A stretch of DNA of 64,000 bases from Verrucomicrobiota bacterium. GTDB lineage: Bacteria; Verrucomicrobiota; Verrucomicrobiia; Verrucomicrobiales; Akkermansiaceae. Positions 1 through 16,365 of this stretch are shown piece after piece. A program made the position numbers and the translations under genes. The stretch spans positions 1 to 64,000 of the forward strand of contig JAPLUI010000331.1 in assembly GCA_026397725.1 (NCBI GenBank). Direction: 5' to 3'. Within the stretch, counting starts at the first letter, position 1. Each line of letters opens with the position of its first letter. The notes beneath the pieces were generated by a model that saw only the letters and a list, made by a program, of their open reading frames with translations, was not told the DNA's origin and did no database searches.

Positions 1-495
1 AGTTATGGCGAAGCGATGGGTGGCGGACAAAAAGGCAATGGCAAGAAGGCGCGGGCCGGCTTGGTGCGGGCGATTATGGCACACCAAGGCTACGAGGCGG
101 ATGCGCGGCATTGGGCTGGCGAGGTTTCGCGGGAATACCGGCTGAGATTGTTGGAAGAGGGGGCGGAGAGGCTCAAGGAGGTGGTGAGCGAGGGTGGTGA
201 GCTTGAGGTGAAGGTGGTGCGCAAGGGGATGAAGCAAGTCGCGGTGGATGCGGTGTTGGAGCAACTGCAGCGGAGCCGGGATGTGGCGATGGGGAAGATG
301 CTGCGCTGCCGGGTGAGATATTTCACGGACGGGGCGGTGATCGGGAGCCGGGGATTTGTGGATGAGGTGTTCCGATTGTGTCGGGGTCGGTTCGGTGGGA
401 CGCGCAAGGACGGGGCGCGGAAGTTGCGAGGCAGTGGTGCGGCAGCGGCTGGGACACTATGGAGCGCGAGGGATTTGCACAAAGGGATCGGGTAA
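1..495 (+). CDS. REP-associated tyrosine transposase (RAYT / Y1_Tnp-like), C-terminal part, 5' truncated by window edge
   Basis: Frame is open from base 1; C-terminal motif LRCRVRYFTDGAVIGSRGFVDEVF...RKDGARKLRG...ARDL resembles the tail of RAYT-type transposases. Confidence 0.6.
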   Translation, partial: SYGEAMGGGQKGNGKKARAGLVRAIMAHQGYEADARHWAGEVSREYRLRLLEEGAERLKEVVSEGGELEVKVVRKGMKQVAVDAVLEQLQRSRDVAMGKMLRCRVRYFTDGAVIGSRGFVDEVFRLCRGRFGGTRKDGARKLRGSGAAAAGTLWSARDLHKGIG

Positions 496-891
496 GATCG
501 GGTCGAAGGCTAATTTCCATCAGTCATCACCCCAGCCACATCTCCAAATCCGCCATCGCCGCCCTGACATTGCCCGTGGCCCCCTCTGCGATCTGGCAGG
601 TGATGGTGATGGGAGCAATCCGTGGTTTCTAAGTACACTCGATACGGCCGGGGCATCTGGCGAGCAGGCGGAGAGGAGGGCTGCGCCCGCGAGGGTGGGT
701 CCCGTGCGATGCCTGTGGCCACGGCCACACCCCCAGCAGCGACATCGCACATTACATGCTGACTGGGGGAGATGTCAGGGTGGGTGGAGTGAGGATGGTA
801 AGAAGGCTTCATGGCCTAAGTCAAGCCCCCTGATGGAGACCAAGCACGCAGAACTCGCCAGTCTCCATATTGGAGCAAACCACTGACTGGG

Positions 892-968
892 GAGCCGGAT
901 GCGGAAGATCCGCAAGTCCGGTTCGGAGGGAGGTGCGGGGCAAGCCAATGCCTCGTCCCTCCTCTATC
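892..968 (+). ncRNA. Group II intron-like domain V/VI remnant
   Basis: GAGCCGGATGCGGAAGATCCGCAAGTCCGGTTC (892-924) folds as a domain V-like hairpin (GAGCCGG/CCGGTTC outer stem, GCGGA/TCCGC inner stem, AT/AAGT bulge), followed by a domain VI-like hairpin GGAGGGAGG...CCTCGTCCCTCC; no RT ORF upstream. Confidence 0.55.
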
Positions 969-1034: not shown

Positions 1035-2006
1035 TCAGGGTTGGGCCGGTCTCGCGGGCTTTTCCGGCTTGGCTGGAGCTTCAGGAGGATTGTCACCCGG
1101 GTTCATGTCGCGCTGGATGCCTTTCCTCAAATCCATGTCGAGGTGCAGGTTCTCAAGGCGTTGGCGGACCTTCTGGGGGGCGGCGGCTTTGTCTTGCGCG
1201 GTATCCCACGGCCCACTCCAGACTTCCTTGCCGCCCTTGTCGAGCACGCGAACCTCACTGCCGCCATCGACCTTTTTCAATTCGATGGAACCGTCCTGAT
1301 CCATCATGTGAATGCTGGAGGCAGTGCTGAAATGGATGCCGGGCCTGCGGCCGTCACCGCCAGCTTCACCACGGGGAATGATTTGGACCCCGCCTGCACC
1401 GCCGGGGATGATTTGGATGCCCATGCCGTTGGCCCCATCTTTGAGTGCTTTCTCAAGCGCCTCGCGCATGCCTGCGCCCAGGTTGTCCATGCCGGGAATG
1501 AGGCCTGCACCCTCGCCTTCGAGCCGCCCCTCTGGCATGGGTGCCGGGCGCTTCCCGAGAACCACGCTGCGCTGGCCAGGTTTGCCCTCGTGGATGAAAT
1601 CGAGGTTGACCTCGTCGCCGGGCTTTTTGTCGCGGATCAGGTCCACCATCTCGCGGTGCGAGGTAACCGCTTGGCCCTCGACCTTGGTGATCACGTCGTC
1701 TTCCGTGAAGCCGGCCTTGGCGGCGGGTCCGGCGGGATCGAGCGAGCGGACGAGCACGCCGCTGTCTGCCGGCAGGTTGAGATGTTTGCCGAGAAAGCGC
1801 GGCAGAGTGCTGGTGCCCAGGCCAAGGTAGGGGGTGGCCTCCACGTTGGCTGCGGCGTTGCTTGGTGCTTGAGCCTCGGGGACTTGAGTGTCGGCTTCCG
1901 GGGCCGCCGCGTTGGGCGGGGGCGGCGCAGTGTCTGCGGGCGTGTCGATGGCGATGGCCGGGAGTGCCAGGGCGAGGCTGGCCAGAAGGGTTGGGCAGTG
2001 TTTCAT
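1035..2006 (-). CDS. Secreted PDZ-domain protein
   Basis: 323 aa ORF with signal peptide (MKHCPTLLASLALALPAIA) and PDZ signature GVLVRSLDPAGPAAKAGFTEDDVITKVEGQAV. Confidence 0.75.
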   Translation of the reverse strand: MKHCPTLLASLALALPAIAIDTPADTAPPPPNAAAPEADTQVPEAQAPSNAAANVEATPYLGLGTSTLPRFLGKHLNLPADSGVLVRSLDPAGPAAKAGFTEDDVITKVEGQAVTSHREMVDLIRDKKPGDEVNLDFIHEGKPGQRSVVLGKRPAPMPEGRLEGEGAGLIPGMDNLGAGMREALEKALKDGANGMGIQIIPGGAGGVQIIPRGEAGGDGRRPGIHFSTASSIHMMDQDGSIELKKVDGGSEVRVLDKGGKEVWSGPWDTAQDKAAAPQKVRQRLENLHLDMDLRKGIQRDMNPGDNPPEAPAKPEKPARPAQP

Positions 2007-2262: not shown

Positions 2263-2346
2263 GCTATTGCATTGATGGGATGGGTCTGCCCGAGTGGGCA
2301 GTTTCACCTCAAAACTCCAACCCCAACTGATAGAAAGCAACTAGCC

Positions 2347-5300
2347 ATGTCATTTCAACAATACCTGAGAGGTCTGCGACCCCTCATTACTCGCGTCGCC
2401 CTTATCGTGGGCGTCTGCATCGGCGGTTTGGTCTGGTTCCAGTCCTACGGCAATAGCGATCCGGACTTCAAGGTCGCCATTGATGACGCGTCTCCGCCAT
2501 CAGCCGAACTCAGTTTCAACGCTGAGGAAGAAGGTTACTACTACCCGGAATACTTCCAGATGGGTACCTCGCCGGACACCGGTGCCACGCCGGGCCAATG
2601 GATCCCCATTCCGAACAACGAGCAATTCTACCATGCGGGAGTACACCGGGTGTTTGTCCAGATCCCCGGTAATCCTACCCCGAAGAATCTGATGCTGCGG
2701 ATGGTCCGGGTGCAAGCCCAGGTGCGACCGACGATCTTCCCGACCGTCATCACTGCCTGCTCGACCACTCCGGTGGTCACCTCCTGCCCGGCCGGTGCCA
2801 CCTTCTGTACCGGCGTGCCAACCACTTGTCCTGGGGTTGCACCGACCCGTTGTACGGCGTCGGCAACCACCTGCCCGATCAGCCAGATCACCACTTGCCC
2901 GGTGCAATTGACCCGGTGCATCGCCGCCCGCACCCAGTGTCCGACCGTCCTAACCAACTGCCCGGTGCGTGCCACGACCTGCCCGATCCGACCGACATTC
3001 TGCCCGCTGCAAACCACCACCTGCCCGTCGCCCCCCACGCAGTGCGGCGCGGTGGTGAGCACCTGCCCGGTGCGGCCCACCATCTGTCCGCCGAACCTCA
3101 CGCAGTGCCCAACCAAATCCACGTACTGCCCGGCCAAGGTGAGCACGGTCTGCCCGGTGAATCCGACCGTCTGTCCCGCCCAGCCCGTTACCAAGTGCCC
3201 ACGGCTCCCAACCAAGTGCCCCGCCGCTATCACCACCTGTGTGACCCAACTCACGGTCTGTCCGCTTGGGGTCACTTGGTGCCCGCAACTGCCCACGATG
3301 TGCCCCCGCAAAGACACCCAGTGCCCGGTGCGGCCGACCTTGTGTCCGAGTGCGGTGGCGAGCACCGTCTGCCCGGTTAGGACCACTGCCTGTCCGCGGG
3401 TTCCCACCACCTGCCCGGAGCTTGCCCTGCTGACCACCTGCCCGACCAAGCACACCGAATGCCCGCGAGTCCTAACGGCCTGCCCGGGTGGTTTGTTGAC
3501 GCAGTGTTTCCAACCCGCTGCCACTCAATGCCTGCATGTGGTGACCGCATGCGCCTCCGGTCCCACCCAATGCGCGTTGACCGCGACCGAGTGCCCGCTG
3601 CGAATGACCCTCTGCCCGCGCGGAGTCTCGACGTGTCCGATCACGACCACGGTTTGCCCGCAGTTGGGGGTCGCCACCCAATGTCCGCGGGTCATCACCG
3701 TTTGCCCGCAAGTGGTGACTCGTTGCCCGGGCGGCGTGGCTGGATGCACGGACGTGGTCACGGAATTCCCACAAGTCCCGACCCAATGCCCGCAGATCGT
3801 GACCAAGTGCCCGGGCGGTCCGACCCAGTGCCTCGACTACCCGACCATTTGCCACTCCAAGGCCATTGCCACGCAGTGCCCGCCGCAGCTCACCATCTGC
3901 ATGAGTGGGGTCACGAACTGTCCGCTCCGAGCGACCACTTGCCCGGTCTCCGACACCACCTGCCCGCACGTGCAGACGCAGTGCCCGGCTTACAGCACCC
4001 AGTGCCCGACGATCCAAAACACGGTGTGCCCGAGCTTGTTCACCAGTTGCCCGCAGCGCTCCACGCAATGCCCGCAGGGCACGCCGACGGAATGCGCCCA
4101 AATCCTGACGAACTGTGCCGGCCAACAGACCCTGTGTCCGGCCATCGGCGCCACCATGTGCCCGGAAGCCCCCACCCAATGCCCGTCCAAGTCAACCTTG
4201 TGCCCTGGCAACCAGACGCAGTGCCCCGTGTTAGAGACGGTTTGTCCGACGGCACCCACCGTGACCCAATGCCCCGCAACGGTGACCGCCTGCCCCAGCG
4301 TGCTTACCTTCTGCCCGCAAACGTTGACCCAATGTCCCGAACGGATCACCGGCTGCCCGGTGCAGGCAACCCAATGCGTCAACGAAGCGACGCAGTGCCC
4401 GGTTGACACCACCAAGTGCCCGGTCGGAGCCACCTGGTGCCCACAGGACTCCACGAATTGCCCGGAGGATCTCACCCGCTGTCCGGCAACCAAGTCCACC
4501 GTCTGCCCGGTGGCGACCACGACTTGCCCGACTCAGTTGACCAATTGCCCGAGCGAACCCACGAAATGCCCGAGCGATCCGACCCTCTGCTCGGCGGATC
4601 CGGTCTCGACCGAATGTCCGCGGCAGGCCACCAACTGCCCGGCGGTCGATACGGTCTGTCCGCAAACGTCAACCGCCTGCCCGCTGCAGGCCACCAACTG
4701 CCCGACCGGACCCACCATCTGCCCGGATAACCCGACCCAATGCCCGCAGGTTTTCACCCAATGCCCGGCCGATCCGACCCGCTGCCCGAACGGAACCACC
4801 ACCTGTCCGAGCCAGCCGACGGACTGTCCGCAACTATCAACGACGTGCCCGGTGGCTGAAACCACCTGCCCGCAAGCACCCACCCAGTGCCCGCAGGATC
4901 AGCCAACCTGGTGCCCGGCGAGCAGTACCCAGTGCCCGGTGGAACCGACGAATTGCCCGGCCGACGCCCTCACCACTTGCCCGGCCACGCCGACGGTGTG
5001 CCCGCCGCCTGACGGCTCCGCCACCCAGTGCCCACAACAGGGAACCGTATGCCCGCAGGTGCAGACGCAGTGCCCGAGTGGACCGACGATGTGCCCGCAG
5101 GAACCGACCACCTGCCCGGTGATCGCGACGGTGTGCCCGGCTCTTACGGCGGCGACCCAATGCACCGGGAGCGCCACCGAATGTGCGGCGGGCGGGGTGA
5201 CCGTCTGCACGGGGACCTTCACCCAGTGCTCGCAAATCGCCACGGTCTGTGGACCCGACGAACCCACGCGCTGTCCGCCGGTAGCCACCCAATGCCCGAT

Positions 5301-6963
5301 CGAGCAGACCCGCTGTCCGGTTGGTGCCGTGACCACCTGCTCGGCAATCGCCACCCAGTGTCCTGACGGCACCGTTACCACGCTATGCCCGGTATCAACC
5401 ACCGCGTGCCCGACGGTCGCGACAAGCTGCCCGACCCAGCCCACCCTGTGTCCAGAGCAGACCACCGAGTGCCCGACCGTGCAGACCCAATGTCCGGCCA
5501 CCGTGACCGAATGCGTGGACCAAGCGACCGTGTGCCCGGTGGCCTCGACGACCTGCCCGCAGGCCGGGACCGCCTGCCCGGAAGTCACGACCACCTGTCC
5601 GCAGGTCACGACCATCTGCCCGCAACCGGCAACTCAGTGCATGATCGCGCCCACCCAGTGCAGCGGGAACCAGCCCACGACCTGCACGGCGACCACCACC
5701 ACTTGCCCGGCACCCACCTACTGCCCGCAAACGCCGACCGAATGCCCGGCTGCGGCAACGGCCTGCCCGACCATTGCAACGGAGTGCCCGAGTGCCACCA
5801 CGACCTGCCCGCAGACCACGACCGCGTGCCCGCTCGGGGCGACCATGTGTCCGTCTCAATCCACGCAATGCCCGGTGGTGACCACCCAGTGCCCGCAGAC
5901 GCCGACCGAGTGCCCGGCGGATTCTCCGACGACCTGCCCGCTGCTGGCCACCCAATGCTCGGGTGAAGCCACGACCTGCGCAACCAGCGACACCGCATGC
6001 ACGCCAGGGGTCACGGTTTGCGCGACACAGGTCACGACCTGCCCGATCGCCACCCAGCCGACCGTCTGCCCAGCCGCGAGCGACCTGACCAAGTGCCCGA
6101 TCGAGCACACGCAATGCCCGATCCAGCAGACGCAGTGCCCGATCATCACCACCCAGTGCCCGGCCGATCAGGCCGGCTGCGGCGGACCGACGATGACCCC
6201 GACCACACCCACCGAGTGTCTGCCAACATTGACACAGTGCCCGGCGGTTAGCACCGAATGCCCGGTGGTCGCCGGCCAATGCGAACCGACCATCTATCCG
6301 GCGGTTTCCACCCAATGTCCGGAGCAATGGACTGAATGCCCGGCACTCAACCGCACCATCTGTCCGGCGATCCTCACCGAATGCACGGGAAATCAAGCCA
6401 CGGTCTGTCCGGAGATCTTCACCGAGTGCCCGGGGAATCATCCCACGGTTTGCCCTGCGACCGTCACCGAGTGTACGGGGAATCAATCCACGATCTGTCC
6501 GGTGATTGACACCCAGTGCCCGGTAGTCCTGACCCAATGCCCGTTTGATCCGACCACCTGTGGACAAACCACGATGTTCCCGCAGACACCGACCCAGTGT
6601 CCGAGAGTCCAGACCGAATGTCCGGCGCAATCGACCACCTGCCCGATGGGCATGACCCAGTGCCCGACGACCCAGTTCACAGTCTGTCCGGCGCTGTCCA
6701 CCACCTGCGGCGTGTCCCCAACTCAGTGCCCGGCGAACCAGTTCACAGTCTGTGGATCGGTTGCCACCCGGTGCAGTTCGTCCACGACCGAGTGCCCGCG
6801 GAAACTCACCGAGTGCCCGGGCGTCCCAATATCACAGACGGTTTGCCCGTCCCCGCAGCCCACCCAGTGCCCGACCCAACAAAACACGGTTTGCCCGTTC
6901 CAGCCCACCCTGTGCCCGCACCACACCACGGTCTGCCCGGTTGATGCGACCTGCCACCCCTGA
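2347..6963 (+). CDS. Giant membrane-anchored Cys-Pro heptad-repeat protein (paralog 1)
   Basis: ORF 2200-6963; start at ATG 2347 (MSFQQYLRGLRPLITRVALIVGVCIGGLVW...) chosen by match to paralog 2. Hydrophobic anchor, head domain, then [T/S]-x-C-P-x-x-x heptads to the C-terminus. Confidence 0.9.
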   Translation: MSFQQYLRGLRPLITRVALIVGVCIGGLVWFQSYGNSDPDFKVAIDDASPPSAELSFNAEEEGYYYPEYFQMGTSPDTGATPGQWIPIPNNEQFYHAGVHRVFVQIPGNPTPKNLMLRMVRVQAQVRPTIFPTVITACSTTPVVTSCPAGATFCTGVPTTCPGVAPTRCTASATTCPISQITTCPVQLTRCIAARTQCPTVLTNCPVRATTCPIRPTFCPLQTTTCPSPPTQCGAVVSTCPVRPTICPPNLTQCPTKSTYCPAKVSTVCPVNPTVCPAQPVTKCPRLPTKCPAAITTCVTQLTVCPLGVTWCPQLPTMCPRKDTQCPVRPTLCPSAVASTVCPVRTTACPRVPTTCPELALLTTCPTKHTECPRVLTACPGGLLTQCFQPAATQCLHVVTACASGPTQCALTATECPLRMTLCPRGVSTCPITTTVCPQLGVATQCPRVITVCPQVVTRCPGGVAGCTDVVTEFPQVPTQCPQIVTKCPGGPTQCLDYPTICHSKAIATQCPPQLTICMSGVTNCPLRATTCPVSDTTCPHVQTQCPAYSTQCPTIQNTVCPSLFTSCPQRSTQCPQGTPTECAQILTNCAGQQTLCPAIGATMCPEAPTQCPSKSTLCPGNQTQCPVLETVCPTAPTVTQCPATVTACPSVLTFCPQTLTQCPERITGCPVQATQCVNEATQCPVDTTKCPVGATWCPQDSTNCPEDLTRCPATKSTVCPVATTTCPTQLTNCPSEPTKCPSDPTLCSADPVSTECPRQATNCPAVDTVCPQTSTACPLQATNCPTGPTICPDNPTQCPQVFTQCPADPTRCPNGTTTCPSQPTDCPQLSTTCPVAETTCPQAPTQCPQDQPTWCPASSTQCPVEPTNCPADALTTCPATPTVCPPPDGSATQCPQQGTVCPQVQTQCPSGPTMCPQEPTTCPVIATVCPALTAATQCTGSATECAAGGVTVCTGTFTQCSQIATVCGPDEPTRCPPVATQCPIEQTRCPVGAVTTCSAIATQCPDGTVTTLCPVSTTACPTVATSCPTQPTLCPEQTTECPTVQTQCPATVTECVDQATVCPVASTTCPQAGTACPEVTTTCPQVTTICPQPATQCMIAPTQCSGNQPTTCTATTTTCPAPTYCPQTPTECPAAATACPTIATECPSATTTCPQTTTACPLGATMCPSQSTQCPVVTTQCPQTPTECPADSPTTCPLLATQCSGEATTCATSDTACTPGVTVCATQVTTCPIATQPTVCPAASDLTKCPIEHTQCPIQQTQCPIITTQCPADQAGCGGPTMTPTTPTECLPTLTQCPAVSTECPVVAGQCEPTIYPAVSTQCPEQWTECPALNRTICPAILTECTGNQATVCPEIFTECPGNHPTVCPATVTECTGNQSTICPVIDTQCPVVLTQCPFDPTTCGQTTMFPQTPTQCPRVQTECPAQSTTCPMGMTQCPTTQFTVCPALSTTCGVSPTQCPANQFTVCGSVATRCSSSTTECPRKLTECPGVPISQTVCPSPQPTQCPTQQNTVCPFQPTLCPHHTTVCPVDATCHP

Positions 6964-7014
6964 CTGACAAGCACCCGGCGGCCCGCCACCCGGCCTGACT
7001 AACGAAACCACGAC

Positions 7015-7046
7015 GATCAGCCGGTGGCGCAAGCCGCCGGCTGATC
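7015..7046. terminator. Perfect-stem hairpin after paralog 1
   Basis: GATCAGCCGGTGGCGCAAGCCGCCGGCTGATC inverted repeat; a closely related hairpin follows paralog 2. Confidence 0.5.
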
Positions 7047-7278
7047 CGTCCCTGGGGACATGCACGCCCGGGGGAAGGCACGCGGGATTGACGATCCGGG
7101 AGGTCTCATCAACGGGTTGACTTGACGCGCATGTCCGGGGGGAGGCATGACGGATGTCCGGTAGGCCCGCCCGTGCGGTTCGATTCCAGCCGCGCAGCGC
7201 TGCCGTGGAAAGTGCCGGAACCAACGCTGCGCAGGGCGGGGATTTCGGGACCATATCTAATATATTGAAAATGTTGGG

Positions 7279-7314
7279 CTTTTTTTCTTGCGTTGCGGTC
7301 GAAATCGGAGTAGT
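7279..7314 (+). promoter_or_regulatory. Candidate promoter/leader block upstream of second Cys-repeat gene
   Basis: ctttttttcttgcgttgcggtcgaaatcggagtag matches the block at 2224-2262 with few differences. Confidence 0.4.
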
Positions 7315-7397
7315 TGCCACCTGTATCGATGGAAGCGGGTATTGCCCGCTGCCCCGTCCCGACTCCTAACACCAATCATTAGAAAGCAACCCCAGCC

Positions 7398-10300
7398 ATG
7401 TCATTTCAACAAAATCTGAGGGGACTGCGTCCTCTCATGACTCGCGTCGCCCTCATTCTGGGCGTCTGCATCGGCGGCTTGTTCTGGCTCCAATCCTACG
7501 CACTCCCGGACGGAAATCCGGATTTCAAGCTCGCCATTGATGATGCGTCCCCACCATCAGCCGAACTCAGCTTCACCTCTGCGGAAGATGGCTATTACTA
7601 CCCGGAGTATTACGACGAAAAGAAGAAAGAGTGGATTGCCATTCCGAACAACGAGCAATTCCTGAACGCGGGGGTACACCGCGTGTTTGTTCAAATCCCG
7701 GTGGATCCCATGCCGAAAAACCTGATGCTGCGGATGGTCAGGGTGGACGCTCAGGTGCGACCGACGATTTTCCCGGTCGTCGTTACTGCCTGTTCGACCA
7801 CTCCGGTGATCACCGCCTGCCCGGCAGGCCCCACCTCGTGTCCCTCGGTTCTAACCACTTGCCCCGGGGTTGCGCCGACCCGATGCCCGCAGGCCACCAC
7901 CTGCCCGGACGGCGGCATCCAAGTGACCGCTTGCCCGGTGCAATTGACCCAATGCGTCTCCGCTCGCACCCAGTGCCCGACGGTGGCTACCAACTGCCCG
8001 GTGCGTGCCACCACCTGCCCGGCACGGCCCACTTTCTGCGTGGGCTTGAGCGCCACCACCTGTCCCATCCAGCCCACGGCCTGCAGTCCGGTAGTGACCA
8101 CCTGCCCGGTCAGACCCACCGCCTGCCCGGCCAGCCACACGCAATGCCCGACCCAAGCCACGGCCTGTCCGCCCACGGTGGCCACGGTTTGCCCCGTGAG
8201 TGCGACCGTTTGTCCCGCCCAACCGGTCACCAGTTGTCCACAGGCCATGACCCGGTGTCCCGCCCGGATCACCACTTGTGTGACCCAACTCACGGCCTGT
8301 CCGCTTGGTGCCACTTTCTGCCCGCAGCAGCCCACGACCTGCCCTCGCAAGGACACCCAATGCCCGGTGCGGCCCACCTTGTGCCCCAGCGCGGTGACCA
8401 CCACCACATGCCCGGTTAGCAGCACCGCCTGCCCGCGGACGCCCACCGCCTGCCCGGTGGCCCCCGTGCAGACCGAGTGCCCGACCAAACAAACCGAATG
8501 CCCGCGGGTTCTCACGGTCTGCCCGGCTGGCGGCGAGACGCAGTGTTTGCAAACCGCAGTCACCCAATGCAGCCGCATAGTGACCGCATGCGCAGGCGGA
8601 CTCACCAACAGCACCCAATGTTCACTGGTGGCGACCGCGTGCCCACAATCGATGACGCTCTGTCCGCTCACAGTCACCGGGTGCCCGATCACCACGACGG
8701 TTTGCCCGCAGGTGAGCCTCTCCACCCAGTGTCCGCGGGTCGTCACGGTTTGCCCGCAAATGCTGACCCGTTGCCCGGGAGGCGTGGCCGGTTGCACCGA
8801 CGTGGTCACGGAATTCCCGCAAGTCCCGACCCAATGCCCGCAGATCGTAACCCGGTGCCCGGGCGGTGCGACCCAGTGCGTCGACCAACCGACCGTCTGC
8901 CCCGCCATCTCCACCGCCACGCAGTGCCCGCCGCAGACCACCATCTGCACGGGAGGGGTCACGAACTGCCCGCTCCAGCCGACCGCTTGCCCGGTCTCCG
9001 ACACCACCTGCCCGTATCTGCAGACGCAGTGCCCGGCCTACAGCACCCAGTGCCCGACGATCCAGAACACTGTGTGCCCGAGCTTGTTCACCAGTTGCCC
9101 GCAGCGCTCCACGCAATGCCCGCCGGATCCGACCATCTGCACGCAGCAACTGACGAGCTGTGGCGGTCAGCAGACCCTGTGCCCGGACCCCACCGGGGCC
9201 GCCACCATGTGCCCGGAATCTCCCACCCAATGCCCGACGCGGCCGACCTTCTGCCCAAGCGTGCCGACGCAGTGTCCCGAGTACCAGACGATCTGTCCGA
9301 TGGCGGCCACCGTGACCCAATGCCCGGAAAAGGCGACTGAATGCCCGAGCGTGGTCACCTTCTGCCCGCGAGCGTTGACCGAATGCCCAGTGCAAATCAC
9401 CGGGTGCCCGGGTCGGCCGACCGAGTGCATCCGCGAAGCGACCCAGTGCCCGATCATTTCCACGCAGTGCCCGAGTGGTGACACATGGTGCCCGAAGAGC
9501 CCCACGAATTGCCCCCAGGATCTCACCCACTGTCCGGCTACCGCCACCGTCTGCCCGGTGGTGCCAACCACTTGCCCGACCCAGTTGACCAATTGCCCGC
9601 GCGATGCGACGAAGTGCCCGAGCGATCCGACCATCTGTACGCCCGATCCGGTCACGACCCAATGTCCGCGGCAGCCTACCTCCTGCCCGGTGGTCGATAC
9701 GGTCTGTCCGACCGCCCCGACCACCCCGACCGCGTGCCCGGTGCAGGCCACGACCTGCCCGACGGGGCCCACCATCTGCCCGGATGTCCCGACCCAATGC
9801 CCGCAGGTCTTCACCCTGTGCCCGGCGCTCCCGAGCGTGTGCCCGAACGGACCCACCACCTGCCCGAGCCAGCTCACGGTTTGTCCGGAACTGACAACGA
9901 CGTGTCCGGTGGCCGAAACCGCCTGCCCGCAGGGACCCACCCAGTGCCCGGCTATCAGCACCCAGTGCCCGGCGAGCAACACCCGCTGCCCGGTTGAAAC
10001 GACCACTTGTCCGACCACCCCACTCCACACCGAGTGCCCGGTTATCCCGACAAGTTGCCCGGCCACAACCGGCCTGTGCGATGTGGCCACGGTGTTCCCG
10101 CAGGTACCTACCCAGTGCCCGCAAGCGCAAACGCAGTGCCCGACCGGGCCGACGATGTGCCCGCAGGAACCGACCAAGTGTCCGCTGCTCCCGACGGTTT
10201 GCCCGGATCCGACGACGCCGACCCAATGCAACGGGACCACCACCCAATGTGCTGCGGGCAGTGTGACCGTCTGCGCGGCGACCTTTACCCAGTGCTCGCA

Positions 10301-12782
10301 AATCATCACGGTCTGTGCCGGCAGTGAACCCACCCGCTGCCCGCCGGTCGTTACCCAATGCCCGATCGAGCAGACCATCTGCCCGGTTACCACCGTCACC
10401 ACCTGCTCGGGAACTCCTACTCAATGTCCTGACACCACCGTCTCCACGCAATGCCCGCTTGCGGTCACCGCGTGCCCGCCGGTCTCGACAAGCTGCCCAA
10501 CTCAGCCCACCCTGTGCCCCCTGGAGCAGACGCATTGCCCGCCTCCGACGGCGGCAACCCTATGCCCGACGACCGTGACCGTGTGCGTGGACCAACCGAC
10601 CGTGTGCCCCGTGGCCTCGACGACCTGCCCGCAGACCTCAACCATCTGCCCGGAAGCCACGACCACCTGTCCACAGGTCACGACCTACTGCCCGCGGCCG
10701 GCAACCCAGTGCGTGAGCATGCCCACCCAGTGTACCGGGAGCCAGCCCACGAATTGTTCGGGAACCACCACCACTTGCCCGGCACCCACCTACTGCCCGC
10801 AGACCCCGACCCAGTGCCCAAGTACTGCAACGGTCTGCCCGACCAACGCAACGGTCTGCCCGAGTGCTGCCACGGATTGCCCGCGCACCACCACCGCTTG
10901 TCCGGTCGCGGCGACCTTGTGCCCGTCCGGGACAACGCAGTGCCCGGTCGTGCCCACCACTTGCCCGCAGAAGCCGACCGAGTGCCCGGTGATTAGTCCC
11001 GCCACGACCTGCCCGATGTTGATCACCCAGTGCTCGACGGCCGTCACGGCAGCCACGGCGTGCGCAACTACAGCGACCCAGACCCAATGTCCTCACCTCG
11101 GGAGCGCTGCTGTCACCGTTTGCGCAACACAGACCACGACCTGCCCGATCTCAAGTAATCCGACCGTCTGCTCAGGCGCGACCGGCGTCACCAAGTGCCC
11201 GGTCCAGCAAACGCAATGCCCGATCCAGCAGACGCACTGTCCGCAGACTCTGAGTACGGTTTGTCCGGTGGTCCAGACCCAGTGCCCGACAATCCAGACC
11301 CAATGCCCGCTGGACTCCGTGAAATGCGGACCCACGATGTACCCGCAAATCCCCACCCAGTGCCCGGTGGTGTGGCTCACTGAGTGCCCGGTGACCCAAA
11401 CCCAGTGCCCGGTTGTCCAAACCCAGTGCCCGCTTGATCCAGCCACCTGCGGACAAGCCACCGTATTCCCGGAAACTCCCACCCAGTGCCCGGTGGTACA
11501 GACCCAGTGCCCGACCGTCGCTGGCTCATGTGAGCCGACGATTTATCCGGTGGTCCCGACCCAGTGCCCGCTCGATCCGGCCACTTGCGGGACGACCATG
11601 ACCCCGACCCTACCCACCGAGTGCCCGCGACAAACGACGCAATGCCCGGTGCTCGACACCCAGTGTCCTGAGGCGTCCACGGTATGCCCGGTATCGACCA
11701 CCACCTGTCCGGACCTCGACCTGACGAGATGCCCGCTCGACCTGACGAGATGCCCATTCGACCTGACCAATTGCCCGACCGTACAGACCCTGTGCCCGGC
11801 GAGCCAACCCACCGTCTGTGCGACCTTCCCCACCGAGTGCCCGACGGCTGACGGCCAGTGCGGACCCACGATCTATCCGGTGGTCCCGACCGAGTGCCCG
11901 AAGCCGATGACTGAATGCTGGGTCGTCTATACCCACTGTCCGGCCACGGTGACCGAGTGCGTGCAAGAGACAACTGTCTGCCCGACCAAGTCCACCGAGT
12001 GCCCGGTGGTTCCCGGCCAATGCGGACCGACGTTCTTCCCGCAGGTGACCACCGTATGCCCGGCTCAGGTGCCCACGATCTGCCCGGCCAGCCAACCCAC
12101 TGTCTGTGCGACTTACACCACCGAGTGCCCGACGGCTGACGGCAAGTGCGGACCGACGATCTATCCGGCGGTGCAGACCCAGTGCCCGAGTACCTTAACG
12201 GCGTGTCCGGTGATTCCCGGCCAATGCGAACCGACGATCTATCCGGCGACCCAGACCCAGTGCCCGGCGGTCTCGACTCAGTGCCCGGCCGAACCACCTA
12301 CGGTCTGCCCGCGCGGCTTCACCCAATGCCCGAACACCCCGTTCACGGTTTGTCCGGCGATCAGCACCACCTGCGCCGGCACCGTGCCCACGACTTGTCC
12401 GGAGAAAGCCACCGAATGCACCGGCCAGACACCGACGGCTTGCCCGCTGATCCCCACCCAGTGCCCGGCTGTCCAACCGACGCTCTGCATGGCCAAACCG
12501 GTGGTTGTCACAGGCACCGCTGTGGTCTCCGGCAACACGGCGGTCCTGCATGGCACGGTGAACCCGAACGGACTTACAACGAACCCGACGACGTTCCAAT
12601 GGGGCCGGACCACCTCATACGGCAACAACCTGTCGCTTCCGCCGGTCAGTGGTTGGGGTGCGCAGCCTGTGACTGGAAACCTTGACGGATTAGCGCCCAA
12701 GAGCACCTACCATTACCGCTTGACCGCAAAGAACAGCGAGGGAGAGGGCGTAGGACTTGATGCCACCTTCACTACCCCGTGA
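7398..12782 (+). CDS. Giant membrane-anchored Cys-Pro heptad-repeat protein (paralog 2) with C-terminal fibronectin III-like cap
   Basis: 1794 aa; MSFQQNLRGLRPLMTRVALILGVCIGGLFWLQSY anchor, head shared with paralog 1, heptad array, then FN3-like tail (VVTGTAVVSGNTAVLHGTVNPNGL...TFQWGRTTSYGN...YHYRLTAKNSEG). Confidence 0.9.
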   Translation: MSFQQNLRGLRPLMTRVALILGVCIGGLFWLQSYALPDGNPDFKLAIDDASPPSAELSFTSAEDGYYYPEYYDEKKKEWIAIPNNEQFLNAGVHRVFVQIPVDPMPKNLMLRMVRVDAQVRPTIFPVVVTACSTTPVITACPAGPTSCPSVLTTCPGVAPTRCPQATTCPDGGIQVTACPVQLTQCVSARTQCPTVATNCPVRATTCPARPTFCVGLSATTCPIQPTACSPVVTTCPVRPTACPASHTQCPTQATACPPTVATVCPVSATVCPAQPVTSCPQAMTRCPARITTCVTQLTACPLGATFCPQQPTTCPRKDTQCPVRPTLCPSAVTTTTCPVSSTACPRTPTACPVAPVQTECPTKQTECPRVLTVCPAGGETQCLQTAVTQCSRIVTACAGGLTNSTQCSLVATACPQSMTLCPLTVTGCPITTTVCPQVSLSTQCPRVVTVCPQMLTRCPGGVAGCTDVVTEFPQVPTQCPQIVTRCPGGATQCVDQPTVCPAISTATQCPPQTTICTGGVTNCPLQPTACPVSDTTCPYLQTQCPAYSTQCPTIQNTVCPSLFTSCPQRSTQCPPDPTICTQQLTSCGGQQTLCPDPTGAATMCPESPTQCPTRPTFCPSVPTQCPEYQTICPMAATVTQCPEKATECPSVVTFCPRALTECPVQITGCPGRPTECIREATQCPIISTQCPSGDTWCPKSPTNCPQDLTHCPATATVCPVVPTTCPTQLTNCPRDATKCPSDPTICTPDPVTTQCPRQPTSCPVVDTVCPTAPTTPTACPVQATTCPTGPTICPDVPTQCPQVFTLCPALPSVCPNGPTTCPSQLTVCPELTTTCPVAETACPQGPTQCPAISTQCPASNTRCPVETTTCPTTPLHTECPVIPTSCPATTGLCDVATVFPQVPTQCPQAQTQCPTGPTMCPQEPTKCPLLPTVCPDPTTPTQCNGTTTQCAAGSVTVCAATFTQCSQIITVCAGSEPTRCPPVVTQCPIEQTICPVTTVTTCSGTPTQCPDTTVSTQCPLAVTACPPVSTSCPTQPTLCPLEQTHCPPPTAATLCPTTVTVCVDQPTVCPVASTTCPQTSTICPEATTTCPQVTTYCPRPATQCVSMPTQCTGSQPTNCSGTTTTCPAPTYCPQTPTQCPSTATVCPTNATVCPSAATDCPRTTTACPVAATLCPSGTTQCPVVPTTCPQKPTECPVISPATTCPMLITQCSTAVTAATACATTATQTQCPHLGSAAVTVCATQTTTCPISSNPTVCSGATGVTKCPVQQTQCPIQQTHCPQTLSTVCPVVQTQCPTIQTQCPLDSVKCGPTMYPQIPTQCPVVWLTECPVTQTQCPVVQTQCPLDPATCGQATVFPETPTQCPVVQTQCPTVAGSCEPTIYPVVPTQCPLDPATCGTTMTPTLPTECPRQTTQCPVLDTQCPEASTVCPVSTTTCPDLDLTRCPLDLTRCPFDLTNCPTVQTLCPASQPTVCATFPTECPTADGQCGPTIYPVVPTECPKPMTECWVVYTHCPATVTECVQETTVCPTKSTECPVVPGQCGPTFFPQVTTVCPAQVPTICPASQPTVCATYTTECPTADGKCGPTIYPAVQTQCPSTLTACPVIPGQCEPTIYPATQTQCPAVSTQCPAEPPTVCPRGFTQCPNTPFTVCPAISTTCAGTVPTTCPEKATECTGQTPTACPLIPTQCPAVQPTLCMAKPVVVTGTAVVSGNTAVLHGTVNPNGLTTNPTTFQWGRTTSYGNNLSLPPVSGWGAQPVTGNLDGLAPKSTYHYRLTAKNSEGEGVGLDATFTTP

Positions 12783-13407: not shown

Positions 13408-16365
13408 ATGCGAAGAATCTACGATCCAAGCCTCAAAGCTACCGTTACACTCGACGACTCCGGCGAGCTGCGGGGAATCAACCACCTCGACGAGTACCGC
13501 GAGATCGAGCACCTTCGCGGTCGCGCCGCCGCTGCGGCATACCTCCGCGACATCGCCGGGAAGCTCAGTATCGCGCCGGCAGCGGTGCGCCGCCTCGATC
13601 AGGCGGTGTCGTACCTCGATCCCCAGGAGCAGGCGGTCGAGTACCGCTTCAGCGAGGAGAAGACCCTCTTCGATTCGGCCACCTACGTTTACTATCAGAC
13701 CTACCTGAACGCCCCGGTCTGGGCGGCGGGCGTGACGGCCACGATCAAGCAGGCGCCGGTGCGCGTTGTCGCGGCAACAAACACGAGCGTGCGCGGCATC
13801 GACGCGAAGATGCCGTCGGCTGCAGCCATCAAGCGCTATCGGGCGCTCTTTGCGACCGGAGAGAAGATCGACGGCCCGCCCCGGCGGCTCACCGAGCGGC
13901 TCACGACCGAGCAGCTCGACGCGGCCAACGCCGCCGACTCCGAGCTGCTGGCCGACATCGTCGGCAAGGGCGGTAAGGCCTCCAAAGGGGCCGACGAGGG
14001 CAAGAGGAACCCGCGGCTGATCCGTGGACGCTTCTTCGTCTACCGGTACGACCCCGCCAGTCGGACCACGGATCACGGGCATTCCGCGCACGGGGGAGAC
14101 GCGCCGCAGCCAGGCGCGGCGCAGGGCGATGAGCAGCCGATGTGCGGCACGCCGCCGACGCTGCCGCTGCCGCCGGTGCCCAAGTCGATTCAGGAGGGGC
14201 GCTGGTACCTCGTCGCGGAACTCATCTGTCGCCTGCCGCACGACGGCCGCCAGGTGAACTGGCGCATGCTGGTCGAGGTGGAGACCAACGTGGTGCTTTA
14301 CCTGCGCGTGCTGACATCGAACGTGAACGGGCTCGTGTTCGTCGCCGATCCCATCACCGCCACTGGCGACGCCGCGAACTCGCCGGCGGCTACGGCCGCC
14401 ACGCTGAACCCGTTACGAAGCAGCGTCACGCTGCTGGGCCTGACGGCTCCAGCGCCCGGAAGCAACCAGGCCCTGACGGGCAGCTTCGTGCAGGTCTCCG
14501 ATTTCGAGCTGGCAACGGCTGCGTCTCCCACGGAGGCACCCGGCACCGATTTCAACTACGCCACCCGCACTAACAACTTCGCGGCCGTGAACGCCTATTA
14601 CCTCTGCGACCGCTTCTTCCGGCTGGTCGAAGATCTGGGCTTCCCCATCAGCACCTACTTCGACGGCACGACGTTCCCGGTTCCAGTTGATCATCGCGGA
14701 CGTTTCCAAACCACGGACGGGATTGAGCGAAACGCGTCGTGCTCGGGCGATGGCGACGGCATTGCCAACGTGGACTTCGAGCTGGCGGACCTGACCGACA
14801 CCGCCAATCCGATGGGCATCGCCGCCGACTGGCGGGTCGTGCTCCACGAGCTGGGAGGACACGGCATCCTCAACGATCACGTGAACCAGGGGAGCTTCGG
14901 CTTCTCGCACAGCGCCGGGGACAGCTTCGCCGTGATCCTGAACGATCCGTCCACACAGGCCGCCGACCGCTTCGAGTCGTTCCCGTGGGTGAGTTTCATC
15001 GGCCGACGTCACGACCGCAGCGTGGCCGGCGGTTGGGGCTGGGGCGGCACGAACGACGTGGGCGGGTACTCGAGCGAACAGATTCTCGCCACCACCATGT
15101 TCCGCGCCTATCGCTCGATTGGCGGAGACTCGACCGATGTCGGTCGGCGCGAGTTCGCCGCACGCTGCATGGCCTACCTGATGCTGCGTGCGGTCGGGAC
15201 GCTAAGCCCGACGAGCAACCCCGCCTCGCCTGCGCAGTTCCTCGACGCTCTGATCGCCGCCGATGCCGGCAACTGGACCTCGGAGGGGATCTTCGGCGAC
15301 GCCTATGGAAAGGTGCTCACCTGGGCTTTCGAGAAGCAGAACCTCAACGGCGGTGCGGTGCCCAGCGTGGACGTTTACATCGACGACGGCCGGGCCGGCG
15401 AGTACGCCTATCTCCCCGTGCATTGGGCGACCACCACGATCTGGAACCGGCGCAGCAGCGACGGGATGCCCGCCCACGAGGAGCCGGCGCTCGGCGAGAC
15501 CAATTACGCATATGTGAAGGTTAAAAACCGGGGCACGACGATCGCCAACGACGTGATCGTAAAGGGCTACCACTGCAGGCCGTCGACCGGCGTGCTCTGG
15601 CCGAACGACCTGCAGCCCATGGCCACCGCGCAGATGTCGGCTGGAACCCTCCAGCCCAACAACGCGGAGGAAAAAACTGTCGGGCCGTTCGAGTGGACGC
15701 CGGTGACCAACGCCTGGGGCCACGACTGCATGCTGATGATCGTGTCGGCGACCGGCGACCCGAGCAACGTCGACAAGTTCACCGCCGGCGAGGTGGTGGA
15801 GGACTGGCGCCTCGTACCGAACGACAACAACGTGGCTCAGCGAAACGTGACGCTCGTCCCGGGCGGCGGCGGGCTGCGGGGCCTGATGGCGGGGCTGCAC
15901 GGCAAGGGCTTCTGGGTGGGCAACCCAGGTCGCCGGGCCGCCCACGTTGCGGTATCGGTGGAACTGCCGTCGCTCCTGGCGCGTCGCGGGTGGCGGATCG
16001 GCCTGCGCGACCTGCCGGCGAACGGCACCCGCCTGAAGGCCCGCGAGCAGCGCCTGGTGACCTTTGAGGTCCACTCCGGCGTGCCGTTCACCACGGCCGA
16101 GGTGACGGAGGCGGCTGAGCGGGACATCGTCGTGACTGCCACCGCCGACGGGGCGCTCATCGGCGGTATGGTGTACCGGATCGATCCCGAGATCGAGATG
16201 CCGTTCAACGACCGCACGTCCGAGGAACGGAAGGAGGGGTGCCGCGATAAAGCCAAACAGCTCCTCGCCTGCTTGAACCTCTCCGGCGGCAACGTGAAGC
16301 GCGTGCGCGTCCGCAAGGTTGTGATCGATGTTGAGATGGAGAGCGACGACTCCGGTTGCGACTAA
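13408..16365 (+). CDS. Fungalysin/M36-like metallopeptidase-domain protein
   Basis: 985 aa; HELGGHGILNDHVNQGSFGFSHSAGDSFAVIL zinc-site region (HExxH); no obvious signal peptide. Confidence 0.6.
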   Translation: MRRIYDPSLKATVTLDDSGELRGINHLDEYREIEHLRGRAAAAAYLRDIAGKLSIAPAAVRRLDQAVSYLDPQEQAVEYRFSEEKTLFDSATYVYYQTYLNAPVWAAGVTATIKQAPVRVVAATNTSVRGIDAKMPSAAAIKRYRALFATGEKIDGPPRRLTERLTTEQLDAANAADSELLADIVGKGGKASKGADEGKRNPRLIRGRFFVYRYDPASRTTDHGHSAHGGDAPQPGAAQGDEQPMCGTPPTLPLPPVPKSIQEGRWYLVAELICRLPHDGRQVNWRMLVEVETNVVLYLRVLTSNVNGLVFVADPITATGDAANSPAATAATLNPLRSSVTLLGLTAPAPGSNQALTGSFVQVSDFELATAASPTEAPGTDFNYATRTNNFAAVNAYYLCDRFFRLVEDLGFPISTYFDGTTFPVPVDHRGRFQTTDGIERNASCSGDGDGIANVDFELADLTDTANPMGIAADWRVVLHELGGHGILNDHVNQGSFGFSHSAGDSFAVILNDPSTQAADRFESFPWVSFIGRRHDRSVAGGWGWGGTNDVGGYSSEQILATTMFRAYRSIGGDSTDVGRREFAARCMAYLMLRAVGTLSPTSNPASPAQFLDALIAADAGNWTSEGIFGDAYGKVLTWAFEKQNLNGGAVPSVDVYIDDGRAGEYAYLPVHWATTTIWNRRSSDGMPAHEEPALGETNYAYVKVKNRGTTIANDVIVKGYHCRPSTGVLWPNDLQPMATAQMSAGTLQPNNAEEKTVGPFEWTPVTNAWGHDCMLMIVSATGDPSNVDKFTAGEVVEDWRLVPNDNNVAQRNVTLVPGGGGLRGLMAGLHGKGFWVGNPGRRAAHVAVSVELPSLLARRGWRIGLRDLPANGTRLKAREQRLVTFEVHSGVPFTTAEVTEAAERDIVVTATADGALIGGMVYRIDPEIEMPFNDRTSEERKEGCRDKAKQLLACLNLSGGNVKRVRVRKVVIDVEMESDDSGCD

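Follow-up and report, generated by a model that had tools for sequence, protein, structure and literature searches.

We identified, in a freshwater Verrucomicrobiota bacterium of the family Akkermansiaceae, two neighbouring genes for giant, export-type proteins built around a seven-residue unit, T-x-C-P-x-x-x. Both lie on the forward strand of the window, by which we mean the whole 64,000-nucleotide stretch of DNA that was analysed. We consider it an even question whether they belong to an undescribed extracellular polymer of Verrucomicrobiota, in which the T-x-C-P heptad would go together with an inner-membrane pair of GIFT-domain proteins (A and B) and a WCxxC-containing partner (C), and which would be spread sparsely and possibly horizontally. 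The repeat and its association with A, B and C match nothing that we searched (Pfam, NCBIfam, PDB, open-access literature) and are new in that sense, while exported structural proteins rich in Cys are, as a broad class, already known. The parts of the two genes are as follows.

2318 to 2346, forward strand: 5′ leader of the first repeat gene, CCCCAAnTGATAGAAAG...GCCATG, from an upstream comparison of nine genes
2347 to 6963, forward strand: complete gene for heptad protein 1 (1538 aa, 191 Cys)
2347 to 2448, forward strand: putative signal peptide of protein 1 (MSFQQYLRGLRPLITRVALIVGVCIGGLVWFQSY), cleavage placed by eye
2449 to 2745, forward strand: head domain of protein 1, a predicted small beta-sandwich ending at an invariant PTIFP (AlphaFold2 and alignment)
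2749 to 6960, forward strand: heptad array of protein 1, T-x-C-P-x-x-x, with 190 Cys
7369 to 7397, forward strand: 5′ leader of the second repeat gene, which has TTAGAAAGCAAC...GCCATG in common with the leader of the first
7398 to 12782, forward strand: complete gene for heptad protein 2 (1794 aa, 208 Cys)
7398 to 7505, forward strand: putative signal peptide of protein 2, with an S-Y-A end, cleavage placed by eye
7506 to 7790, forward strand: head domain of the second protein, with 77% identity to head-proximal sequence of protein 1
7791 to 12488, forward strand: heptad array of protein 2, with 207 Cys and extra T-[IM]-[YF]-P units
12489 to 12779, forward strand: possible C-terminal Fn3-like domain of protein 2 (weak Pfam matches, below cut-off)

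A sequence-only reading of this DNA had described two giant open reading frames of about 1540 and 1794 residues, each with some 200 Cys in a seven-residue Cys-Pro repeat, and the lengths and Cys counts given above bear it out. Of the 190 Cys-to-Cys intervals of protein 1, 145 measure exactly seven residues, as do 151 of the 207 in protein 2; none of 200 shuffles per array gave more than 23 such cases. Thr occupies position −2 relative to Cys in 96% (protein 1) and 94% (protein 2) of cases, and Pro follows 77% of Cys in each protein. The motif first proposed, [T/S]-x-C-P-x-x-x, thus stands for its Thr, Cys and Pro but loses its Ser alternative, Ser being rare. Cys makes up about 12–13% of the arrays, with one Cys-Pro per heptad; in occasional T-[IM]-[YF]-P units an aromatic residue takes its place. 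At the DNA level, a strict pattern for three consecutive units gave 129 matches in the window and none in 100 shuffles. The variable positions showed no clear higher-order periodicity of 14 or 21 residues and thus offered no basis for deriving a strand-pairing or solenoid register. A coiled-coil heptad, which had already been doubted on account of Pro, does not fit the frequency of Pro after Cys, and AlphaFold2 modeled no helix among the repeats.

The two proteins are collinear paralogues with 68% identity across 1518 aligned residues, end to end. Their differences are distributed over the three codon positions as 340/288/476 with a GC3 of 0.79, which supports the forward frame, and a dN/dS of 0.46 indicates purifying selection. 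Identity at the four variable positions per unit is 49% when the paralogues are compared in register and about 11% when shifted by one repeat; because these positions match in register only, the arrays are neither a DNA satellite nor scrambled by slippage. Motif-mimicking 21-bp satellites do arise by chance, as in viral contigs and in a Streptomyces plasmid record, and would lend themselves to a reading of the frames as read-through of a 21-bp DNA repeat rather than as proteins. We regard such an artefact as exceedingly improbable here, since that non-coding reading is contradicted by the collinear conservation, the codon-position bias, the dN/dS value, the conserved signal peptide, head and leader, and the presence of orthologues in other lineages. 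We read the long open frames of the opposite strand as shadows of the heptad codons. The leader CCCCAAnTGATAGAAAG...GCCATG is common to both genes and to most orthologues among the nine genes compared upstream, and its conservation among the orthologues fixes the start codons.

Across eight proteins of the genus, conservation reaches 99.3% in the Cys columns, 173 of 179 of which are invariant, compared with 96% for Thr and 93% for Pro. This pattern supports Cys as the most conserved residue of the array and as one that is probably under structural constraint. An odd number of mature Cys was counted in six of the twelve proteins compared, one of the twelve being cut by a contig end, and complete pairing inside a single chain is consequently impossible in those proteins.

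The N-termini comprise a basic n-region, a hydrophobic core and an S-x-A/S-x-G end, which reads S-Y-G, S-Y-A, S-N-A or S-H-A among the orthologues of the genus. Remote relatives share this layout and end in ATA before Q (genome G368) or VAA before E (G455), as in AxA-type signal peptidase I sites, and signal peptides were read in heptad proteins from all five lineages that carry them. The sequence-only reading had placed the proteins outside the cytoplasm behind an N-terminal anchor. Its extracytoplasmic placing agrees with the export-type N-terminus; the anchor is the less likely alternative, as the S-x-A and AxA ends, judged by eye, favour cleavage, and a Sec signal peptide removed by signal peptidase I is the more likely interpretation of these sequences.

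The head domain, about 100 residues long, was modeled alone by AlphaFold2 with a mean pLDDT of 68.8 and consists of beta strands only, save one short turn; its model found no significant fold match in the PDB. Structure prediction of the repeats, as the earlier reading had suggested, was run on the head with about 27 repeats; pLDDT stayed below 35 through almost all of the repeats, where no helix was modeled. With seven sequences, this low confidence is uninformative and is not evidence of disorder. At the other end, the C-terminal domain of protein 2 matches Pur_ac_phosph_N (E 0.0023) and fn3 (E 0.033) below the Pfam cut-offs. Protein 1 has no C-terminal domain and lacks the Fn3-like one, and in most members of the genus the array runs to the C-terminus without a terminal domain. 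In the G455 relative, a Lamin Tail Domain (LTD) scoring 34.1 bits against a cut-off of 34.3 is fused to the heptad array (L182 3664-5256); Trk potassium-transport genes adjoin this gene. The earlier statement that no named family is recognisable held in the Pfam, NCBIfam and PDB searches: the repeat matched no Pfam or NCBIfam family at E<=1, and against PDB chains gave no match beyond chance aldolase hits, with E 0.09 or worse, on the C-terminal domain.

The genome that contains the window (G000) is an assembly of 12.6 Mb with 96% completeness and 5.5% contamination, far larger than the listed genomes of the same genus (about 2–7 Mb). Named orthologues come from lake metagenomes labelled Akkermansiaceae or Verrucomicrobia. 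Around the heptad genes, the window contains the following features.

1 to 495, forward strand: open reading frame truncated by the window edge, with a C-terminus resembling a REP-associated (IS200-like) transposase by eye
890 to 967, forward strand: group II intron domain (Rfam, 40.9 bits against a gathering score of 40), 5′ of the heptad genes
1035 to 2006, reverse strand: exported-looking PDZ-domain protein (PDZ_2, E 1.4e-14), divergent neighbour of heptad gene 1
13408 to 16365, forward strand: 985-aa protein with an HELGGH motif, downstream of heptad gene 2

Motifs of the HELGGH type are typical of zinc metallopeptidases; the 985-aa protein has no Pfam match. The neighbourhoods compared showed no counterpart of the PDZ-domain gene next to relatives’ heptad genes, and across relatives the heptad genes of the window have no conserved neighbourhood apart from A/B(/C).

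To describe the distribution of the repeat, samples of public genomes were used: 196 relatives, an order sample of 387 and a phylum sample of 388. A heptad protein occurs in 7 of the 196 relatives. The carriers G000, G018, G026, G036 (a tandem pair), G057 (two) and G066 (a fragment) fall within a single genus, and the seventh, G137, belongs to a different family. Pattern searches of the wider samples added G717, from the same family and another genus, and G368 and G455, from other families of the wider phylum; read directly, the arrays of these three are unmistakable heptads with signal peptides. On sequence grounds, the family is rare and patchy, present in at least five Verrucomicrobiota lineages. 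No heptad arrays were found in phages, and a viral origin was rejected, the pattern scan of IMG/VR having matched only 21-bp satellites in viral contigs. The plasmid match in a Streptomyces record is likewise pure satellite DNA: a ‘plasmid’ stretch of Streptomyces sp. f51 (L243, NZ_CP149799.1) consists almost entirely of a 21-bp satellite on which giant hypothetical proteins are annotated, and probably reflects an error of assembly or annotation. Weak matches on Borrelia plasmids were judged compositional. In the open-access literature, we found no paper that names a T-x-C-P repeat or ties DUF4350 to Verrucomicrobia.

Proteins A and B are paralogous membrane proteins of about 840 aa each, encoded in tandem and related with a profile-profile probability of 99.9%. 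Each is laid out as several TM helices, a GIFT domain, two further TM helices and a DUF4350-type domain. Their profiles match the IFT52 GIFT domain in the PDB (E 3e-7). With Pfam, DUF4350 (cut-off 30.4) was scored at 69 bits in A of G368 and at 37 and 36 bits in A and B of G036, and IFT52_GIFT at 30.9 bits in B of G137 (cut-off 27.2). By these sequence matches A and B qualify as members of the GIFT/DUF4350 superfamily. In G368 the repeat gene is followed directly by the A/B genes; the distance to them is about 1.2 kb in G036 and about 23 kb in G018. G137 encodes the TM part as a separate gene, and a run of genes on one strand contains, in this order, a 474-aa gene (RHS-like by eye), the repeat gene, a small gene, TM-A, A, TM-B, B and C. 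In the window’s own genome, the A/B/C cluster lies on another contig (C350:7472-13505), unlinked to the window. Protein C is an exported protein with an SxxYxKAVKEA motif and one to three WCxxC(xxxH) motifs, and its gene adjoins that of B in six genomes. Protein C at L208 12474-13505 and its homologues are Pro/Ala-rich, exported and carry a repeated YYWCxxCKxYHxR motif; they have no family match, and C of G137 gave a weak match to DsbE. The leader motif of the heptad genes was sought in front of A and not found.

A is present in all ten repeat-bearing genomes. Among the 196 relatives it occurs in eight, the seven repeat carriers plus G097, whose A/B genes lie on a 6.6-kb contig; the naive hypergeometric P for this co-occurrence is 4e-12, a value whose weight is lowered by phylogeny. 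A was detected in 9 genomes of the order sample (387) and in 6 of the phylum sample (388), all repeat carriers included. The repeat and A/B occur together in all five separate lineages, and the genes are adjacent or near in three to four genomes. These sequence comparisons support a repeat protein that is nearly always co-inherited with A/B, as far as the samples indicate, with partial linkage. Since the repeat fits no searched family, recurs in five lineages and is co-inherited with A/B, the data suggest a new surface-building or metal-binding system.

Four genomes (G097, G272, G402 and G467) encode A without a detected repeat gene; either A/B serve other cargo there too or the repeat gene was missed. 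An A/B-type pair without a heptad protein lies near an RHS-repeat protein in G272 (L237 4116-8716), and near an RHS-repeat protein and a 1742-aa TSP3 giant in G402 (L238 55-3695). A/B may serve several giant exported proteins, given this adjacency. The heptad chain could then be the stalk of an adhesin or contact surface, with A/B as a general module for the export and display of heptad, RHS and TSP3 giants, and the Fn3-like and LTD domains at the C-terminus of some arrays would suit such a role. We think this rather improbable: the arrays of most genus members have no terminal domain, and RHS and TSP3 genes are common in Verrucomicrobiota, so their adjacency in two genomes may be chance.

GIFT domains are also present in Wbp1 of the oligosaccharyltransferase, where sugar binding has been proposed (PMC7226087), and on that basis one can picture a mucin-like matrix, an exported Thr/Pro chain that is O-glycosylated, with glycans handled by A/B and Cys cross-links secondary. 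Thr constitutes 12–20% of residues, one per heptad and close to Pro, and a Wzy_C (O-antigen ligase) gene adjoins A in G272. However, G272 is the only genome with that arrangement and has no detected repeat gene, A and B contain no glycosyltransferase fold by Pfam and NCBIfam, and conservation of Cys exceeds that of Thr, all of which leave a glycosylated matrix a fairly slim prospect.

We tentatively propose, at slightly less than an even chance, that the heptad proteins form an exported, Cys-cross-linked extended fibre, sheath or coat served by an inner-membrane module of its own. Export (from sequence features), the heptad architecture, selection on Cys, and the co-inheritance and partial linkage with A/B(/C) are the parts of this proposal that our sequence comparisons support. 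From these we infer signal cleavage, cross-linking, the fibre or coat form and the roles of A, B and C. A Sec signal peptide would bring the chain over the inner membrane and then be removed. The beta-sandwich head would be followed by about 150–200 T-x-C-P-x-x-x units in a long chain stiffened by Thr and Pro, which would expose one thiol per seven residues. Outside the inner membrane, where conditions are oxidising, these thiols could join each chain to itself and to its neighbours and so build an insoluble fibre, sheath or coat, to which some paralogues would add C-terminal domains, Fn3-like here and a Lamin Tail Domain in a remote relative. The inner-membrane A/B pair and the small exported WCxxC protein C would serve maturation, modification or export of the heptad protein. 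The sequence-only reading had suggested a disulfide-laddered fibre, sheath or metal-binding rod, which we likewise find plausible. Counting against our proposal are the low-confidence model of the repeats, the unlinked A/B/C cluster of the window’s genome, the four genomes with A and no detected repeat gene, and the distribution of disulfide-forming enzymes.

Oxidation that depends on Dsb proteins was without support: DsbB was found in none of the 22 genomes tested, and VKOR, present in 3 of 10 repeat carriers and 2 of 12 non-carriers, does not track the heptad family. Since neither enzyme follows the repeat, binding of metal or haem has to be weighed. A chelator with many sites, exported and binding soft metals or haem through the Cys of its Cys-Pro pairs instead of forming disulfides, would agree with the missing DsbB and rare VKOR, with the Cys content and the Cys-Pro in each heptad, and with the conservation of Cys above all other residues; Cys-Pro is a known haem-regulatory dipeptide. 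Yet the regular seven-residue spacing differs from the CxC/CxxC clusters of metallothioneins, free thiols would oxidise outside the cell, and the compared neighbourhoods have no metal-transport gene in common. We consider a thiolate sink unlikely, if still worth keeping in mind, and continue to favour the cross-linked fibre or coat.

If the proposal is correct, these proteins would represent a new class of regularly spaced Cys polymer with its own membrane module, in relatives of the Chlamydiae and Planctomycetes, bacteria whose envelopes are already unusual. The structure of an oxidised T-x-C-P heptad and the role of the GIFT/DUF4350 membrane pair would become testable, and a chain of more than 1,400 residues with a thiol at every seventh would be of interest for materials and metal recovery.

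Several known systems resemble parts of this one. B of G455 weakly matches GldG, a gliding/T9SS ABC component (E 2e-9); an assignment of A/B as GldG was rejected, the best score with TIGR03521 being 36.5 bits against a cut-off of 389.85. The N-terminal TM module of B recalls the exosortase/archaeosortase family, with one weak TIGR04178 match (E 0.023). B was rejected as an exosortase because that match, at 15 bits against a cut-off of 23, occurs in 1 of 10 members only, B has no catalytic ACSG-type motif and the heptad proteins carry no CTERM sorting signal; a profile comparison with one true exosortase of the window’s genome also gave no match. A and B share GIFT domains with IFT52 and Wbp1 and differ from both in their N-terminal multi-TM module. 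For the heptad proteins themselves, the sequence-only reading had pointed to a relative of the Chlamydiae, which the Verrucomicrobiota genome confirms, and had offered OmcA/OmcB as a conceptual comparator only. That restraint was justified. The chlamydial proteins are likewise exported and Cys-rich and come from a related phylum, and by analogy the likeness could extend to cross-linking, but OmcB is not a heptad repeat, and the heptad proteins match no OmcA/OmcB family in Pfam, nor any Pfam or NCBIfam family at E<=1. Among PVC bacteria, Cys-rich proteins with a YTV domain have been reported in cell-wall preparations of planctomycetes, only from Planctomycetales (PMC8567305). The heptad proteins resemble these in being Cys-rich and, by analogy, possibly in belonging to the envelope, and differ from them in having no YTV domain and no Pfam family at E<=1. 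We regard OmcA/OmcB and the YTV proteins as functional analogues at most.
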